From Desulfovibrionaceae bacterium (GTDB lineage Bacteria > Desulfobacterota > Desulfovibrionia > Desulfovibrionales > Desulfovibrionaceae): a stretch of DNA of 52,971 bases. Location of the stretch: positions 1 to 52,971 of the forward strand of contig JAFGBU010000034.1 of NCBI GenBank assembly GCA_016932995.1, written 5' to 3'. Both the position numbers and the translations under genes were made by a program. The notes below the pieces were generated by a model. That model made no database searches. It was not told where the DNA came from and saw only the letters and a program-made list of their open reading frames with translations. Numbering within the stretch: position 1 is the first letter of the stretch; each line of letters opens with the position of its first letter. This document shows positions 2,639 to 44,841 of the stretch, piece by piece.

Positions 2639-3772
2639 ATGACCCGTGAACAAGCCAGGATAGCCGTGATGACCCCCAGGCTCAGCCGCTACGGCGGGGC
2701 CGAGAGGTTCGGCTGGGACCTGGCCGAGGCCTTGGCCGGGAGCGGTTATGGCGTGGACTTCATCTGCGCCCGCCAGGAGGTCCGGCCCCCGGCCGGGGTC
2801 AGGCCGGTGGTCGTGGGCCGCCCGGGTCCGGGCCGGGCGATCAAGAACCTCTGGTTCGCCTGGGCCGCGGAGCGCGTGCGCCGGAGCGGGGCCTACGACC
2901 TGAGCATCGGCCTGGGCCGCACCCTGCGCCAGGACATCCTGCGCGTGGGCGGCGGGCCCATGCGGGTCTTCTGGCGCCTCTCGGCCCTGGCCTGGCCGAG
3001 CGGTCCGGCCCGGGCCTGGAAGACGCTCAGGCGCGCGCTCTGCCCGGCCAACTGGGTCATCGGCCTGCTCGAGGCGCGGCAGATGCGCTCGGGCCAGGTC
3101 ATGGTCGCGGTCTCGCACCTGGTGCGCGACTGGATGGTCCTCGCCCACCCGCACCTGGACCCGGAGCGGATCATGGTCGTGTACAACCGCCCGGACCCCG
3201 GGCGCTTCGCCCCGCCGGACCCGGCTAGGCGCGAGGCCCTGCGCCAAGACCTGGGCCTCTTGCCCGGGCAGACGCTCATCGGCGTTGCGGGCACGAATTT
3301 CGCGCTCAAGGGCGTGGCCACGCTCATCCGCGCCCTGGCCCTGCTGCCCGAGGGCTTTCGACTGCACGTGGCCGGGGGCCGCAACCCGGGCCGATACCTG
3401 GACCTGGCCCGGGACCTGGGTCTGGCCGAGCGGGTGCGCTTCATGGGCCGGGTCGAGGACATGGCCTCCTTTTACCAGGCCCTGGACCTCTTTGTCCTGC
3501 CCACGTTCTACGACGCCTGCTCCAACGCCGTGCTCGAGGCCCTGAGCTGCGGGCTGAGGGTGGTCTCGACCCGGACCAACGGCAGCTCGTTCTTTTTGCC
3601 CGGGCGCTGGGTCCTGGACGATCCCGGGGACTTCAGGGCCCTGGCCGATATCATCGAAAGGACCTCTGCCGAGCCCGCGCCCGGCCCGTTCGCCTGGCCC
3701 GGGGGCGCGGCCTGCGGGCTAGAACCCTACCTGGACCTGGTCCAGGGGCTTTTGGAGAAAAAGGGCGCATGA
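2639..3772 (+). CDS. family 4 glycosyltransferase (WaaG-like)
   Basis: A 377-aa GT-B enzyme. The N-terminal loop RLSRYGGAERFGWDLAEAL and the C-terminal donor-site segment FYDACSNAVLEALSCG (E-x7-E type) are typical of GT4 proteins such as the LPS core glucosyltransferase WaaG. VGGGPMRVFW and YNRPDPGRF are also typical of that group. Start ATG 2639 has an excellent GGAAGG site (2626-2631, 7-nt spacer); an in-frame GTG at 2561 is less likely. It overlaps the next glycosyltransferase gene by an ATGA. LPS core or surface-glycan assembly is inferred; donor and acceptor are not determined. Confidence 0.85.
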   Translation: MTREQARIAVMTPRLSRYGGAERFGWDLAEALAGSGYGVDFICARQEVRPPAGVRPVVVGRPGPGRAIKNLWFAWAAERVRRSGAYDLSIGLGRTLRQDILRVGGGPMRVFWRLSALAWPSGPARAWKTLRRALCPANWVIGLLEARQMRSGQVMVAVSHLVRDWMVLAHPHLDPERIMVVYNRPDPGRFAPPDPARREALRQDLGLLPGQTLIGVAGTNFALKGVATLIRALALLPEGFRLHVAGGRNPGRYLDLARDLGLAERVRFMGRVEDMASFYQALDLFVLPTFYDACSNAVLEALSCGLRVVSTRTNGSSFFLPGRWVLDDPGDFRALADIIERTSAEPAPGPFAWPGGAACGLEPYLDLVQGLLEKKGA

Positions 3773-4785
3773 ACACGGCCCAAGACCGCGCGCGCAGCGT
3801 GCTCTTCCTGACCCAGTCCGGGGCCACCCTGCCCAGCGTGCGCTTCCGGGTCCTGCCCTTTGTGGCCCAGGGCCGGGACATGGGCCTGGACGTGGACTGG
3901 CGGCGCATTCCCAAGACCGTGCCCCAGAGGCTGGGGTTCTTTTTCGGCCTGCCCCGGACCGACGTGATCATCGTCCAGAAGAAGCTCTTTTCCAGGTTCG
4001 AGCTCGGGCTTCTGCGCCGCAAGTGCCGGAGCCTGGTCTTTGACTTTGACGACGCCCTGTGGACCTTTCATCCCAGCGAGCCGCCCGGCCCGGACAGGGA
4101 CAGGCGCGTGGCCAGGAACGCCGGGCGCTTCGCCCGGGTCTGCGCGGACGTGGACCTGGTCATCGCGGGCAACGACTACCTGGCCCGGCGGGCCGCGGCC
4201 CATCAGGGCAATGTCCGGGTGGTGCCCACGCCCCTGGACACCGACCTGTACACGCCCCCGGACCCGGCCGGGCCGGACCGCGAGCCCTGCGTGGGCTGGA
4301 TGGGCACGGCCAGCAACCTCTATTTCCTGTCCGAGGTCTTCGAGGCCCTGGCCCCGCTCTCGGGCGAGGCGCGCTTTCTGGTGGTCGCGGACAGGCGCTT
4401 TTCCGAGAAGTACCGGACCCGGGCCGACTTCGAGTTCTGGACCCCGGACAGCGAGCTGGCCCAGCTGAGGTCCATGGACATCGGGCTGATGCCCTTGACC
4501 GACGACGAGTACACCCGGGGCAAGTGCGGGTTCAAGATATTGCAGTACATGGCCTGCGGCGTGGTCCCGGTGGCCGCGGACGTGGGCTTCAACCGCGAGA
4601 TAGTCGAGCACGGCGTGGACGGCCTCCTGGTCCGCGACCCGTCCCAGTGGGCCGAGTACGTGAGGCTTCTGGCCCGGGACCGTGATTTGCGGGCCGAGAT
4701 GGCCGCCGCGGCCAGGAAAAAGGTGGTCCGGGACTACAGCCTCAAGGCCCTGTCCGGCAGGTTCTGGTCGGCCATAGGTCTCTAG
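3769..4785 (+). CDS. GT-B glycosyltransferase
   Basis: A 338-aa protein translationally coupled to the preceding glycosyltransferase through ATGA. The N-terminal part LPSVRFRVLPF is common in glycosyltransferases of surface-glycan loci; the C-terminal nucleotide-sugar domain contains VGWMGTASNLYFL, IGLMPLTDDEYTRGKCGFKILQYMACG and NREIVEHGVDGLLV, with the Lys and Glu positions of GT4 donor sites. Its TAG stop is inside the first CTAG of repeat copy 1, so the repeat may have contributed the stop codon. Specific linkage unknown. Confidence 0.82.
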   Translation: MNTAQDRARSVLFLTQSGATLPSVRFRVLPFVAQGRDMGLDVDWRRIPKTVPQRLGFFFGLPRTDVIIVQKKLFSRFELGLLRRKCRSLVFDFDDALWTFHPSEPPGPDRDRRVARNAGRFARVCADVDLVIAGNDYLARRAAAHQGNVRVVPTPLDTDLYTPPDPAGPDREPCVGWMGTASNLYFLSEVFEALAPLSGEARFLVVADRRFSEKYRTRADFEFWTPDSELAQLRSMDIGLMPLTDDEYTRGKCGFKILQYMACGVVPVAADVGFNREIVEHGVDGLLVRDPSQWAEYVRLLARDRDLRAEMAAAARKKVVRDYSLKALSGRFWSAIGL

Positions 4786-4930
4786 GAGGTTGTTGATAAA
4801 CAACCTCCGCGCGCCGGGACGGCGCGCCCGGAAGGATTGGCTTCCAATGATTCCGGAGATTCGGCGAAACCGCGCTTTCGCCGAATCGAGTTGAAAAAGT
4901 CCGTCCTGGACTTTTTCAACATTCTGCTAG
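4782..4930 (+). repeat. five-hairpin dispersed repeat, copy 1
   Basis: Starts CTAGGAGGTTGTTGAT and ends CAACATTCTGCTAG. It folds into five successive hairpins: GGAGGTTGTT/AACAACCTCC (loop GATA); GCGCGCC/GGCGCGC; CCGGAAxxATTGG/CCAATxxTTCCGG with two mismatches; GATTCGGCGAAA/TTTCGCCGAATC (12 bp, loop CCGCGC); and GTTGAAAAAGTCC/GGACTTTTTCAAC (13 bp). It occupies most of the gap between the glycosyltransferase and the epimerase gene. No coding potential or transposase is associated. Copies 2 and 3 are at 34897-35044 and 41731-41879. Confidence 0.93.
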
Positions 4931-34896: not shown

Positions 34897-35044
34897 CTAG
34901 GAGGTTGTTGATCAACAACCTCCGCGCGCCAGGGCGGCGCGCCCTGAATCATTGTCCTCCAATGATTCAGGAGATTTGGCGAAACCGCTCTTTCGCCAAA
35001 TCGAGTTGAAAAAGTCCAGGACCGACTTTTTCAACATTCTGCCA
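34897..35044 (+). repeat. five-hairpin dispersed repeat, copy 2
   Basis: Same architecture and orientation as copy 1. Hairpin 1 is here a perfect palindrome (GGAGGTTGTTGA/TCAACAACCTCC). Hairpin 3 is CCTGAATCATTG/CAATGATTCAGG and hairpin 4 GATTTGGCGAAA/TTTCGCCAAATC; both differ from other copies by paired changes that keep pairing. Hairpin 5 has a 12-bp stem. It lies between the HsdR_N-like gene and the convergent YchF-like gene and ends CTGCCAAG instead of CTGCTAG. Confidence 0.93.
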
Positions 35045-35057
35045 AGGCCGGGTCGGC

Positions 35058-41730: not shown

Positions 41731-41879
41731 CCAGAAGGTTGTTGATAAACGACCTCCGCGCGCCAGGACGGCGCGCCCGGAATCATTGGAAGCCAATGAT
41801 TCCGGAGAGTTGGCGAAACCGCGTTTTCTCTAAATCGAGTTGAAAAAGTCCAGGACGGACTTTTTCAACATTCTGCTAG
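41731..41879 (+). repeat. five-hairpin dispersed repeat, copy 3
   Basis: Begins CCAGAAGGTTGTTGAT and ends CAACATTCTGCTAG, same orientation as the others. Hairpin 3 is perfect (CCGGAATCATTGG/CCAATGATTCCGG) and hairpin 5 is perfect (13 bp), while hairpin 1 has mismatches and hairpin 4 is decayed on its right arm (TTTCTCTAAATC). Its right-hand CTAG contains the stop codon of the M16 protease gene (minus strand). It separates that gene from the YbjQ-like gene downstream. Confidence 0.93.
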
Positions 41880-44542
41880 GGCGTGACCTTCATGACGTAG
41901 GCCCGGTCCCAGTCCAGCACCCGCCGGGCCTCCTGGCGCAGGTCTTCGGCCTCCAGGGTCTGGGCCAGGTCCACGATCTCCCTCTCCAGGCCGATGTCCA
42001 GGCCCCAGGCCATGAGCGCCGCGGCCTCGCGGCTGCGGGACAAGAGGGTCTGGTGCTCCTGGCTGTACTCGCCGAGCAGGATGTTCTTGGCCCTGTCGAT
42101 CTCTTGGCCGGGCAAATCCTCTTCCAGGACCTTTTCCAGGGCCTTTTTGAAGCCCTCCATGGAGCGCTCGATCTTGCTCGGCTCGGTGCCGATGTAAAGG
42201 GCCATGAAGCCGGTTTTGGGCGCCTGCCACAGGAACGCGGTCACGGTGTAGCCCAGGCCCTGCCGGTCGCGCAGGTCCCTGAACAACAGCCCGCTCTGGC
42301 CGGCCAGGATCGCCCTGAGCAGGGACAGCCGGGCGCTGGCCGCCTTGTCCTCCTTGCCCGAGGCCGGGAACACGACCAGGACGTGGGCCTGGTTGCGGTC
42401 CGGGAGCTTGAGCTCGGTCTGCCGCTCGCCGGCCCAGCGGGGCGAGGCGAACTCATAGGCCTCCCCCGGCCCGGCCAGGGTCTGGGCCAGGCCGGCGGCG
42501 AATTCGGACAAGACCTGCTCGTCGAACCGGCCGCAGGCGGCCAGGACAAAGGGCGCTTTGGACTGCTTGGACCAGAACCCGGTTATGTCTTGCTTGGAGA
42601 ACTCAAGGACCTGCTCGGGCTGGCCGTCGTGGAAGTAGGAGTAGGGCCCGGTCCTGAAGAGAAAGGGGAAGATGTGCCTGAAGGCCAGGCCCAGGGGCTG
42701 GTCCTCGCGGCGCTTGATGGCCGCCACCTGGTCCTGCTTGGCCCGGTCGATCTCCTTGGCCGCCCAGGCCGGGTCGGTCAACATCTGGCTGATGAGCGGC
42801 AGTATCTCGGCGCTGAACCTGGAGGGGAACTTGGCGTCCATGGAGAAGACGTCCCGGCCCGCGTTGGCGGCCACGTTGGCCGCGCGGTCCGAGAGGAAGT
42901 CCTCGATCTGGTTGGCGGACATGGTCCTGGTGCCCCGCAGAAGGACCCTGGAGGCCAGTTCGGCCAGGCCCTGGCTGCCGGGGTCAAGCCGGCCGTCGCC
43001 GCCGGGCCAGAACAGGGACAGGGCGGTGTAGGGCAGGGTCTGGTCCGGGATCAGCACCAGCCGCCCGCCCCCGGGCAGGTCCACGGTCCGGCGGGCATGG
43101 CCCGCCGGGCTTGCCGCCCCGGCCGCGGCCCGGTCCCGGGCCGGCCAGACCTCGTGCAAAACGCGCCTGAGTCCGTCCCCCGTGATCCCGGCCCGGTCCG
43201 GGACCAGCAGACAGGCGCTCAGGTTGTCCGGCCGGATGTACTGGGCGTAGAGCCCGGCCAGCTCGTCGCGGTCCACCCCGGACAGGGCCAGGAGGTAGTT
43301 CTGCTCCGAGGCCGGCCCCTGTTCGAAGAACTGGAAGTAGCCGAGCTTGGAGGCCAGGCCGGACAGGGTCTCCTTGGCCAGGAACAGGGAGTCCTCGAGG
43401 TTGAGCTTGGCCCGCTCCATCTCCCTGGAGGAGAAGTCCCTGGGGTCCAGGCCGGAGAGCTCGATCATGAGCTCGCGCCAGAACATCTCGACCTTGTCCT
43501 GGTCCAGGGAGGCCTGGATGTAGAACAGGCCGCTGCGCTCCAGGTGCATGGACATGGCCGAGATGTCGTCCACGAGCCTTTTTTCATACTTGAAGGTCCG
43601 ATAGAGCCTGGAGGTCTCGTCCCCGCCCAGGAGCTGGGCCAGGGTCTCCAGGCCCGCCACCTTGCCGGACCTGAGCCCGGGCACGGGAAAGGCCAGGCCG
43701 AGATAGACCTTGTTCCACTTGCCCTTGACGGTCTTGACCATGGGCCCGGCGGGCAGATCGAGGATGGGTTCGGGCGGCCGCACCGGCCTGGTGTTGGACA
43801 GCCCGCCCAAGAGCCTCTCGGCCTCGGCCAGCACGGCCTCGGGATCGACCTTGCCGACCACGGTCAGGAGCATGGACTGGGGCTGGTATTTTTCGTCCAC
43901 ATAGGCGTGGATGTCGGCCGCGCTGAGCTTTTCCACGCTCTTGCGGAAGCCGATGATCGGCCACTCGTAGCTGGTCCCCTTCCAGACCATGCCCTGGACG
44001 GTCTTGAACAGCTTGCTGCCGGGCGTGTCCTCGCCGCGGTCCAGCTCGGCCAGGACGACCTTCTTCTCCGAGGCCAGCTCCTTGGGGGCGATGGCCGCGT
44101 TGAAGGCCATGTCCACGACTATGTCCAGGCCCAGGGCCCAGTTGGGGTCCGGGACCTCGACATAGTAGATGGTGTAGTCGAAGCTCGTGGCCGCGTTGAG
44201 CGAGCCGCCCGCGGCCTCGATCTCCATGGCCGTGCGGCCGGGCCCGCGCCTGGTCGTGCCCTTGAAGACCATGTGCTCCAGGAGGTGGCTGACCCCGGCC
44301 TGGGCGGGCGACTCAAAGCCCGATCCGGTGTGCACGTAGAGCCTGATGTTGGCCAGGGGGAAACGCTCGTCCTTTTTTATGAGCACGGTCAGGCCGTTCT
44401 TGAGCCGGACCACCAGGGGCGTTTCGGAAGCCGTCAGGGCCTCTCCCGCCTGGGCCTTGGCCGCCGGGTCCCGGGCCGTGGATATGGACGGGAAGGCCAG
44501 GGCGATCATCAGCGCACCCAGCAGGACGATGTTCCGAGGCAT
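41876..44542 (-). CDS. secreted M16-family zinc metalloprotease (pitrilysin/insulinase type)
   Basis: 888 aa. Residues 1-22 are a signal peptide (LLGALMIALAFPSISTA), so it acts in the periplasm. The inverted zinc motif H86-LLE-H90, with E167 in SEKKVVLAELDRGED about 77 residues later, is complete. Two M16 peptidase-type halves follow, the second lacking HxxEH as in heterodimer-like or single-chain M16 proteins. ATG 44542 has AAGGAG about seven bases upstream. It may clear signal peptides or misfolded proteins. The TAG stop lies in the repeat end. Confidence 0.88.
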   Translation of the reverse strand: MPRNIVLLGALMIALAFPSISTARDPAAKAQAGEALTASETPLVVRLKNGLTVLIKKDERFPLANIRLYVHTGSGFESPAQAGVSHLLEHMVFKGTTRRGPGRTAMEIEAAGGSLNAATSFDYTIYYVEVPDPNWALGLDIVVDMAFNAAIAPKELASEKKVVLAELDRGEDTPGSKLFKTVQGMVWKGTSYEWPIIGFRKSVEKLSAADIHAYVDEKYQPQSMLLTVVGKVDPEAVLAEAERLLGGLSNTRPVRPPEPILDLPAGPMVKTVKGKWNKVYLGLAFPVPGLRSGKVAGLETLAQLLGGDETSRLYRTFKYEKRLVDDISAMSMHLERSGLFYIQASLDQDKVEMFWRELMIELSGLDPRDFSSREMERAKLNLEDSLFLAKETLSGLASKLGYFQFFEQGPASEQNYLLALSGVDRDELAGLYAQYIRPDNLSACLLVPDRAGITGDGLRRVLHEVWPARDRAAAGAASPAGHARRTVDLPGGGRLVLIPDQTLPYTALSLFWPGGDGRLDPGSQGLAELASRVLLRGTRTMSANQIEDFLSDRAANVAANAGRDVFSMDAKFPSRFSAEILPLISQMLTDPAWAAKEIDRAKQDQVAAIKRREDQPLGLAFRHIFPFLFRTGPYSYFHDGQPEQVLEFSKQDITGFWSKQSKAPFVLAACGRFDEQVLSEFAAGLAQTLAGPGEAYEFASPRWAGERQTELKLPDRNQAHVLVVFPASGKEDKAASARLSLLRAILAGQSGLLFRDLRDRQGLGYTVTAFLWQAPKTGFMALYIGTEPSKIERSMEGFKKALEKVLEEDLPGQEIDRAKNILLGEYSQEHQTLLSRSREAAALMAWGLDIGLEREIVDLAQTLEAEDLRQEARRVLDWDRAYVMKVTP

Positions 44543-44841
44543 GTGTTCACTCCTTGGCTCCTCGCGCAAAAGGTGGGACCGCCTGTTTGTTCTCATTCGC
44601 CAGTCCCCGTGTCAACCTGGTTTGCGGCCGAAACCAGGGCGGTTCCGGCCGAAACAGGCCTGCCGCGGCCGGGTTTTTGGGCCTCCCGGACAAAAAACCC
44701 GGCCCTCTTTCCGCCTGAGAGCCGTCCACGCCACCGCCTCCCCCGGGGAGACGCGCCGCCGACGGACAATGAAGGCCGCTTGCCTCGGATAACGGCTCCC
44801 GATCGACCTGGGGCAAGCCCGGGGGCCGGCGGTTCCTAGAA

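Follow-up and report, generated by a model that had tools for sequence, protein, structure and literature searches.

What is a chain of five hairpins doing at three places in one stretch of bacterial DNA? The stretch, referred to here as the window, is 52,971 nucleotides of contig JAFGBU010000034.1 (positions 1 to 52,971) from a member of the Desulfovibrionaceae, assembly GCA_016932995.1. An earlier note on it described three copies of a repeat of about 149 bp, each with the same five hairpins (hp1 to hp5), read paired changes in the stems as selection for a folded RNA or single-stranded DNA, and listed a mobile palindrome family, an RNase processing site, and an mRNA 3'-end element as candidate identities. 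The analysis described below points to a mobile element whose RNA probably carries a pair of putative sites for the global regulator CsrA and which would serve either as a dispersed decoy for that protein or as a protector of message 3' ends.

All three copies were found where the note had placed them, in one shared orientation, and each has five hairpins, although the fold predicted for copy 3 is disturbed in hairpin 4. The length needed trimming: the outer 4 bases on either side are copies of the target site, and the element proper is 141 bp. Copy 1 (4786 to 4926, plus strand, as are the hairpins and the other copies) lies between CTAG at 4782 to 4785, from which the open reading frame at 3769 to 4785 takes its stop codon, TAG, and CTAG at 4927 to 4930. 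Its hairpins occupy 4786 to 4807 (hp1, the 5' arm of which is the left terminal repeat), 4809 to 4827 (hp2, with the CsrA-like GGA loop GGGAC where the consensus has AGGAC), 4828 to 4856 (hp3, with two mismatches), 4858 to 4887 (hp4), and 4890 to 4920 (hp5, whose 3' arm overlaps the right terminal repeat and whose consensus loop, AGGAC, is here inverted to GTCCT). Copy 2 (34901 to 35041) has a convergent reading frame ending on either side of it; its left site is CTAG (34897 to 34900) and its right site CCAA (35042 to 35045), two transitions away, and its loops read AGGGC in hp2 and AGGAC in hp5. Copy 3 (41735 to 41875), antisense to the called minus-strand reading frames on either side, is flanked by CCAG (41731 to 41734) and CTAG (41876 to 41879), and the minus-strand reading frame 41876 to 44596 has its stop codon in the latter. 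It has AGGAC in both GGA loops and unpaired or G:U positions in hp4. Folded as RNA, the window copies give z scores of -9.2 to -9.3 against dinucleotide shuffles, and 0 of 200 shuffles folded as well.

Is the repeat mobile? The whole genome (2.48 Mb in 49 contigs) holds 19 near-full copies, two of which reach a contig end and lack one or two bases, plus 7 copies cut by contig ends and 3 short forms. Seven are cut off because the repeat breaks the assembly, which leaves the true copy number uncertain; such breaks fall inside element copies on contigs C3, C7, C8, C16, C38, C39, C44, C47, and C48. Among the copies with both ends, 17 are exactly 141 bp and 3 exactly 54 bp. Identical flanking 4-mers of the type YTAR were found in 12 of these 20 copies (permutation mean, 5.5; p = 1.5e-4), and in the other 8 the flanking 4-mers differ by one or two transitions. 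Terminal inverted repeats are present and imperfect (left, GAGGTTGTTGATAAA; right, CAGAATGTTGAAAAA; aligned by eye). The 54-bp forms (L027 to L029, at C26:69797, C26:68388, and C24:81168) lack hp3 and hp4 and keep both ends and the target sites; their length would fit a deletion between nine bases, CCAGGACGG, common to hairpins 2 and 5 (141 - 87 = 54). A distance of 1.4 kb separates two of them, both on contig C26. A multicopy 141-bp repeat with YTAR duplications and IS5-like ends, in a genome where the insertion sequence (IS) itself was not found, is therefore a non-autonomous mobile element. Of the identities suggested in the note, the mobile palindrome family is borne out by precise ends, terminal inverted repeats, and identical target duplications.

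Related elements in other genomes, introduced below, carry the same marks in two versions. In genera g20, g34, and g52 the ends begin ATTCC and the duplication is the 3-mer TNA, identical in 17 of 17 parsed elements, a figure to be read with the parsing in mind: 45 elements were examined, 28 remained unparsed, and the right pattern was restricted to TNA while the left was free. The terminal repeats in g20 and g52 read ATTCC.. and ATTCGG... Families elsewhere in the phylum have YTAR-like duplications, with identical 4-mers in 9 of 18 parsed elements (19 examined; mean, 2.7; p = 5e-5); the end parser failed on one of those 19 and also on 7 of 8 elements of genome G005. IS5 elements are described as duplicating YTAR (PMC10359306) or CTAG (PMC10379815), and the IS1031 group of IS5 as duplicating TNA (PMC12016507). 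The duplications found, YTAR or TNA, are those expected of an IS5 derivative.

These marks also bear on a rather different idea, namely, that the hairpins are recognized as single-stranded DNA by a transposase or host factor, in the manner of IS200/IS605 or REP/RAYT-like elements. A strand-specific chain of hairpins with conserved loops, present in dispersed copies, is what such an element would look like. Target duplications and terminal inverted repeats are the marks of DDE transposition, not of Y1 elements. An element of the single-stranded kind should leave no target duplication, whereas identical duplications of 3 to 4 bp are present here together with terminal inverted repeats; a DDE insertion sequence has similar ends, and the 54-bp forms keep both ends without the middle hairpins. 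We regard this explanation as very improbable.

Which insertion sequence has those ends? A search of ten relatives' genomes for the transposase domain PF01609 (DDE_Tnp_1) gave 70 matches, in five of the genomes, and the ends of 30 were examined. One of the 30, in genome G024 (L100), has the end ATAG followed by CAGCGTGTTGAAAAACTCC just before the transposase gene. A homologue of its transposase, 95% identical, is found on plasmid pDMC1 of Solidesulfovibrio magneticus RS-1, also of the Desulfovibrionaceae, within an IS5-type insertion sequence (L417, 601 to 1746) whose ends, CAGCGTGTTGAAAAACTCC and CAGGCCGTTGCAAAAAGC, are like the element's and which is flanked by TGTA on both sides (right end and duplication read by eye). 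This insertion sequence adjoins an annotated IS66 transposase gene. A more distant homologue on pLB1, 60% identical and annotated as IS5 family, has the ends CAGGCCGTTGACGAAGTCGG and CAGCGCGGTGACGAAGTCGG, of the form CAG..CGTTGACGAAGTC, flanked by CTAA on both sides. The right end of the window element, CAGAATGTTGAAAAAGTCC, equals the pDMC1 left end at 16 of 19 bases. The insertion sequences of pDMC1, G024, pLB1, and a Methylocystis heyeri plasmid thus resemble the element in having ends CAG..YGTTG.(A)AAA and a 4-bp target duplication; they differ from the 141-bp element in carrying a transposase gene, and the elements of the TNA clade and of genome G026 differ from the pDMC1 type in their ends. 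No relative of the G024 transposase was encoded in the viral contigs searched. Two further repeats, L050 (G031:C50) and L051 (G026:C182), have ends CAG..TGTTGAAAAAGTCC and CTAG flanks and lack the five-hairpin chain, so it looks as though a single set of ends served several cargoes.

How far has the element spread? By plain DNA similarity, hardly at all: 3 of 59 relatives match, counting the genome itself, and the 58 other genomes of the family or order hold no full-length copy, only fragments, in two of them. Covariance models tell otherwise, matching other genera and families, so that the element is not confined to this genome, as the note's second ground for refutation would have required. 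They place the same five hairpins, in one order, in eight genera of the order and in five more families of the phylum. One model, R1, was built from this genome's copies and a second, R2, from 30 elements. Among 179 genomes of the family, R1 matched 13, spread over 9 of the 44 genera represented (E, 0.01). With R2, the order (297 genomes, 55 genera) gave 19 matching genomes in 9 genera, including a second family (1e-4), and the phylum (395 genomes, 246 genera) gave 15 in 11 genera, five further families among them (1e-6); the window's genome is included in all three counts. Copy numbers from these genome-wide searches are lower bounds, at most 8 to 18 candidates having been scored per genome, and weak matches (G015, G023, G074, G110, G094, G107, and L194 of G086) were left out as members. 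The phylum is named Desulfobacterota here and Thermodesulfobacteriota at NCBI. Single-contig genomes from other families (G505, G329, and G503) contain from one to at least eight elements each. Folding without any model likewise finds five successive hairpins in many relatives, while others lack one or more.

Single hairpins were also used as queries. The hp4 core matched 36 stretches in genome contigs; none of the 13 outside records named Desulfovibrio or Desulfovibrionaceae matched R2, while 4 of 5 tried from Desulfovibrio-type records did, L205 being the negative one. The hp5 pattern had no match in genome contigs. A viral origin was considered and dropped, the hp4 core's one match in a viral contig being no element; neither did the element match anything among the phages or plasmids searched, or a relative from another family anything in plasmids.

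Do the paired changes between copies reveal selection? The changes quoted in the note are there: copy 1 has C:G in hp4 where copy 2 has T:A, and in hp3 the T:A of copy 2 is replaced by G:C in copy 3. Within this genome, in the alignment A2 (18 copies, leaving out L017, which has a one-base deletion, and the partial copies at contig ends), six pairs show changes on both sides, in 12 cells compared with 4.9 in shuffles. Set against these are the uncompensated changes. At consensus Watson-Crick pairs, 31 single changes break the pair, 12 give G:U, and 4 are full double changes, all of them in hp3; at one hp4 pair the G.A mismatch is the commonest state, in 11 of 18 copies. Some loops are inverted, with GTCCT for AGGAC in hp5 of L001, the same with one change in L005, and AAG for CTT in hp3 of L013 and L019, which suggests template switching or inversion of palindromes. 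Loops that are exact or near inverses of the family loop also occur in L384 (hp5) and L179 (hp2). Template switching is itself described as a source of compensatory changes (PMC8794818). Since uncompensated changes predominate and inverted loops occur, within-genome covariation alone is no proof of selection. The argument from the three copies is therefore not supported as it stands: stem mutations without compensation, which the note itself had said would undo the claim, outnumber the doubles in this genome by 31 to 4, and with a further 12 changes to G:U this genome's covariation was rejected as proof.

Between genera the picture is different. Elements of genome G016, from another genus of the same family, have the same five hairpins in the same order built from different stems. 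In alignment A6 (30 rows), 95.9% of cells are paired compared with 66.8% after shuffling, with 395 double-change cells against 98.9. In A10 (48 rows), 95.0% are paired compared with 63.3% shuffled and 36 to 47% when the partners are slid by one to three columns; double-change cells number 665 against 160 shuffled, and 52 of 53 pairs have changed on both sides. The turnover can be read directly from the sequences of the hp2 stem: GCGCGCC, GCGGGCC, GCGTGAC, GGGTGAC, and GCAATCC. Stems have been replaced and yet remain paired, so the structural constraint that the three window copies could not establish is evident one level up.

Much of this could be expected of an ordinary MITE (miniature inverted-repeat transposable element) in which only the terminal repeats matter and the hairpins, by-products of common descent and template switching, have no RNA function. 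The predominance of uncompensated stem changes within the genome fits that explanation, as do the inverted loops of hp5 (L001 and L005) and hp3 (L013 and L019), the 54-bp forms that still keep their ends and target sites after losing hp3 and hp4, the lack of a consistent orientation bias (see below), and the published role of template switching in producing compensatory changes (PMC8794818). It does not readily account for stems that turn over across the phylum and stay 95% paired, for the recurrence of the same five hairpins where terminal repeats and target duplication have changed type, or for GGA loops that hp2 and hp5 keep on one strand. The last point is pertinent because arm copying with loop inversion should randomize loop orientation, so that strand-specific loops argue against neutral copying. 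On balance, a MITE with functionless hairpins seems unlikely, though it is the strongest of the alternatives weighed here.

What, then, do the loops have in common? They were tabulated for 102 elements from eight genera (the window's, 15 of the genome's own loci, 50 of the 60 loci L136 to L195, and 34 of the 40 loci L254 to L293, with weak, cut, or surplus loci left out). GGA occurs in the loop of hp2 in 93 and of hp5 in 94, compared with 3 for hp1, 3 for hp3, and 0 for hp4; the reverse complement, TCC, is found in 2 hp2 and 2 hp5 loops. For 29 elements from other families, the count took in the loop and three bases on each side; GGA is present there in 26 hp2 and 29 hp5, as against 2, 0, and 4 for hp1, hp3, and hp4, and ANGGAN is present in 26 and 19 of the hp2 and hp5 hairpins, respectively. 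The variants are AGGAC, AGGAU, AGGAA, AGGAG, AGGGAU, AGGGAC, AUGGAU, AUGGAC, ACGGAU, AAGGAU, and a few others. Even the loops that have changed length (AGGGAU, AUGGAU, ACGGAU, and AAGGAU) keep A-N-GGA-N. A third model, R3, was built from eleven elements with both loops masked, because R1 and R2 had been trained on elements with GGA loops. Its search of the 297 genomes of the order gave matches in 19, from 6 of the 55 genera, including the window's genome and G026. Among 38 rows taken from 21 of 30 R3 loci and 18 earlier loci, after the last 6 of 44 rows, antisense or fragment matches, had been dropped, GGA is in the loop of hp2 in 29, hp5 in 28, hp3 in 3, and hp4 in 0, and one or both of the hp2 and hp5 loops have it in 33.

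Both loops read CAGGA(U/A/C)G or ANGGAN, which is the published CsrA/RsmA site, and there are two per element. In CsrB, the repeats place CAGGA(U/A/C)G in the loops of hairpins, and the hexaloop bound by RsmE is ANGGAN with variable N (PMC7652899 and PMC5027483); CsrA sites are generally paired (PMC4383904). In the loop variants given above, the A and the GGA are constant, and the variable bases coincide with the positions left free in the CsrA/RsmE contact. Is a suitable protein at hand? In 22 genomes searched, csrA was present as one gene in each of 15 of 15 carriers and also in G074, where the match to the element is weak. The translations have the Arg44-type motif VYRxE in 15 of 15 and Leu4 in 14 of 14 in which the start is covered; Leu4 and Arg44 are RNA-binding residues of CsrA (PMC7652899). 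It is very probable that the loops of hp2 and hp5 bind a protein as RNA, and CsrA is the best candidate binder.

Several observations weigh against a mobile carrier of CsrA sites and deserve to be set out together. As to the models, R1 has antisense self-hits of up to 40 bits, and for that reason its weakest matches were not counted; R1 and R2 were both trained on GGA-loop elements; and the pair counts are inflated because structural alignments are fitted to the model. The genome search with R3 (297 genomes of the order) missed G005, G016, G055, and G203, whose already extracted loci score 37 to 64 bits with it, and 5 of its 38 rows lack GGA in either loop (the borderline G110, G094, and G107 and two copies from G154). 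As to mobility, PF01609 has no match in the window's genome, and the matching insertion sequence was not found there; the note's remark that no transposase is nearby holds to that extent, for the one family tested. The agreement with the pDMC1 ends is only partial. As to binding, CsrA hairpins derived by SELEX mostly have no more than 4 contiguous pairs (PMC7652899), and the element's stems, at 7 to 14 pairs, are longer than most of these. Within the window, copy 3 alone has AGGAC in both loops. The presence of csrA does not discriminate carriers because it is nearly universal in the genomes searched, occurring in 5 of 6 noncarriers and 21 of 22 overall. Finally, insertion shows no consistent preference for orientation. 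In tandem contexts, this genome has 4 sense and 5 antisense copies; seven other genomes have 16 and 4, and the wider phylum has 7 and 9. The 16-to-4 bias of one set was not repeated in the others, and orientation was discarded as evidence of a sense-strand function. The lack of strand preference may mean that only some copies matter, that the advantage lies with active lineages (for example, through a decoy that loosens control by CsrA), or that the sense RNA comes from unseen promoters.

The genes around the element raise the question of whether it acts simply at the ends of messages. Genes, here and for the orientation counts, were called with a simple codon-bias script. In this genome, 16 of the 29 copies have a called gene whose end coincides with the element border, at one side or at both. 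A 3'-end element of the REP/BIME kind, with hairpins behind stop codons that protect from 3' exonucleases or aid termination on either strand, would make sense of these borders, where the TAG or TAA of the target site is the stop, and of the absent orientation bias, since palindromes act in both directions. The borders have a plainer source: gene ends coincide with them because the YTAR target contains the stop codon TAG or TAA, so the position behind a stop follows from target preference. The TNA-type elements in G251, G142, G164, and G086 have genes at varied distances, and strand-specific GGA loops would go unexplained. A 3'-end role by itself is accordingly quite unlikely, and reading the element as a terminator and nothing else was rejected for ignoring the conserved loops. 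After insertion into a stop codon, the gene still has a stop at its end; this applies at one border of the element or at both.

How might a mobile element with CsrA sites work? As we picture it, a short, non-autonomous, MITE-like element, mostly 130 to 155 bp, would have its ends moved in trans by IS5-type DDE transposases, its interior being a chain of five RNA hairpins. It would be transcribed by read-through from a neighboring gene or from an unseen promoter. In the transcript, hp2 and hp5 would offer one CsrA/RsmA site apiece, a CAGGANG or ANGGAN sequence within a closed hairpin loop, with hairpins 3 and 4 as spacers, and one element might bind a single CsrA dimer or bridge two. Many copies together could form a dispersed CsrA decoy or protect host messages at the 3' end. 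The pairing changes within a genome would be largely mutational, arising from drift after insertion and from template switching that also inverts loops, while long-term conservation would reflect selection on the active lineages. A wider proposal is more tentative, namely, that the whole phylum may harbor a family of transposon-borne CsrA decoys in which a paired CsrA-binding module is kept while nearly all other bases, the terminal repeats, and the target type change.

Has anything like this been described? The note did not recognize the repeat as a described family, and none fits: nothing in Rfam matched the window, and elements of G005 fall just below the cut-off for TD-2 (RF03162). TD-2 RNA, too, consists of serial hairpins, and its consensus has AUGGAU and ACGGAU among the loops. 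Its model gives six G005 copies, L136, L137, L138, L140, and L141 among the matches, 34 to 46 bits (best, 46.1), compared with a gathering score of 48.7 that none of 19 genomes passes, and its first GGA hairpin aligns to hp3 of the element, not hp2. From this sub-threshold likeness, TD-2 itself might be part of a comparable mobile class. TwoAYGGAY would, by its name, have two AYGGAY hairpins; it is listed for human gut samples, gamma-Proteobacteria, and Clostridiales (PMC2864571). The small RNAs CsrB/CsrC and RsmX/Y/Z also consist of serial hairpins with GGA loops of the forms CAGGA(U/A/C)G and ANGGAN (PMC7652899 and PMC5027483), but they are dedicated small RNA genes, CsrB having 22 GGA sequences (PMC5027483), whereas the element has two GGA hairpins among five, is dispersed and transposon-like, and has at most a putative promoter. 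Prokaryotic MITEs such as Correia/NEMIS, ERIC, and QMITE share with it the small size, the absence of genes, terminal inverted repeats, target duplications, a folded transcript, and internally deleted forms (PMC10969869). What sets the element apart from them is that its five hairpins keep their order and loops while ends and target type change between genera. Among the matches listed from a search of the open-licence PMC literature, no paper joined CsrA sites with bacterial MITEs.

The family lends itself naturally to testing how compensatory changes in stems come about, setting broken pairs and inverted loops within one genome beside near-complete stem turnover, with pairing kept, between genera. 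RNAs that antagonize CsrA are known as dedicated genes. If the interpretation offered here is true, a transposable element that scatters CsrA sites in pairs would tune a regulon in a new way, and mobile DNA would either interfere with its host or serve it through CsrA. On the wider, phylum-level proposal, selfish DNA would carry, and copy, the set-point of a global post-transcriptional regulator.

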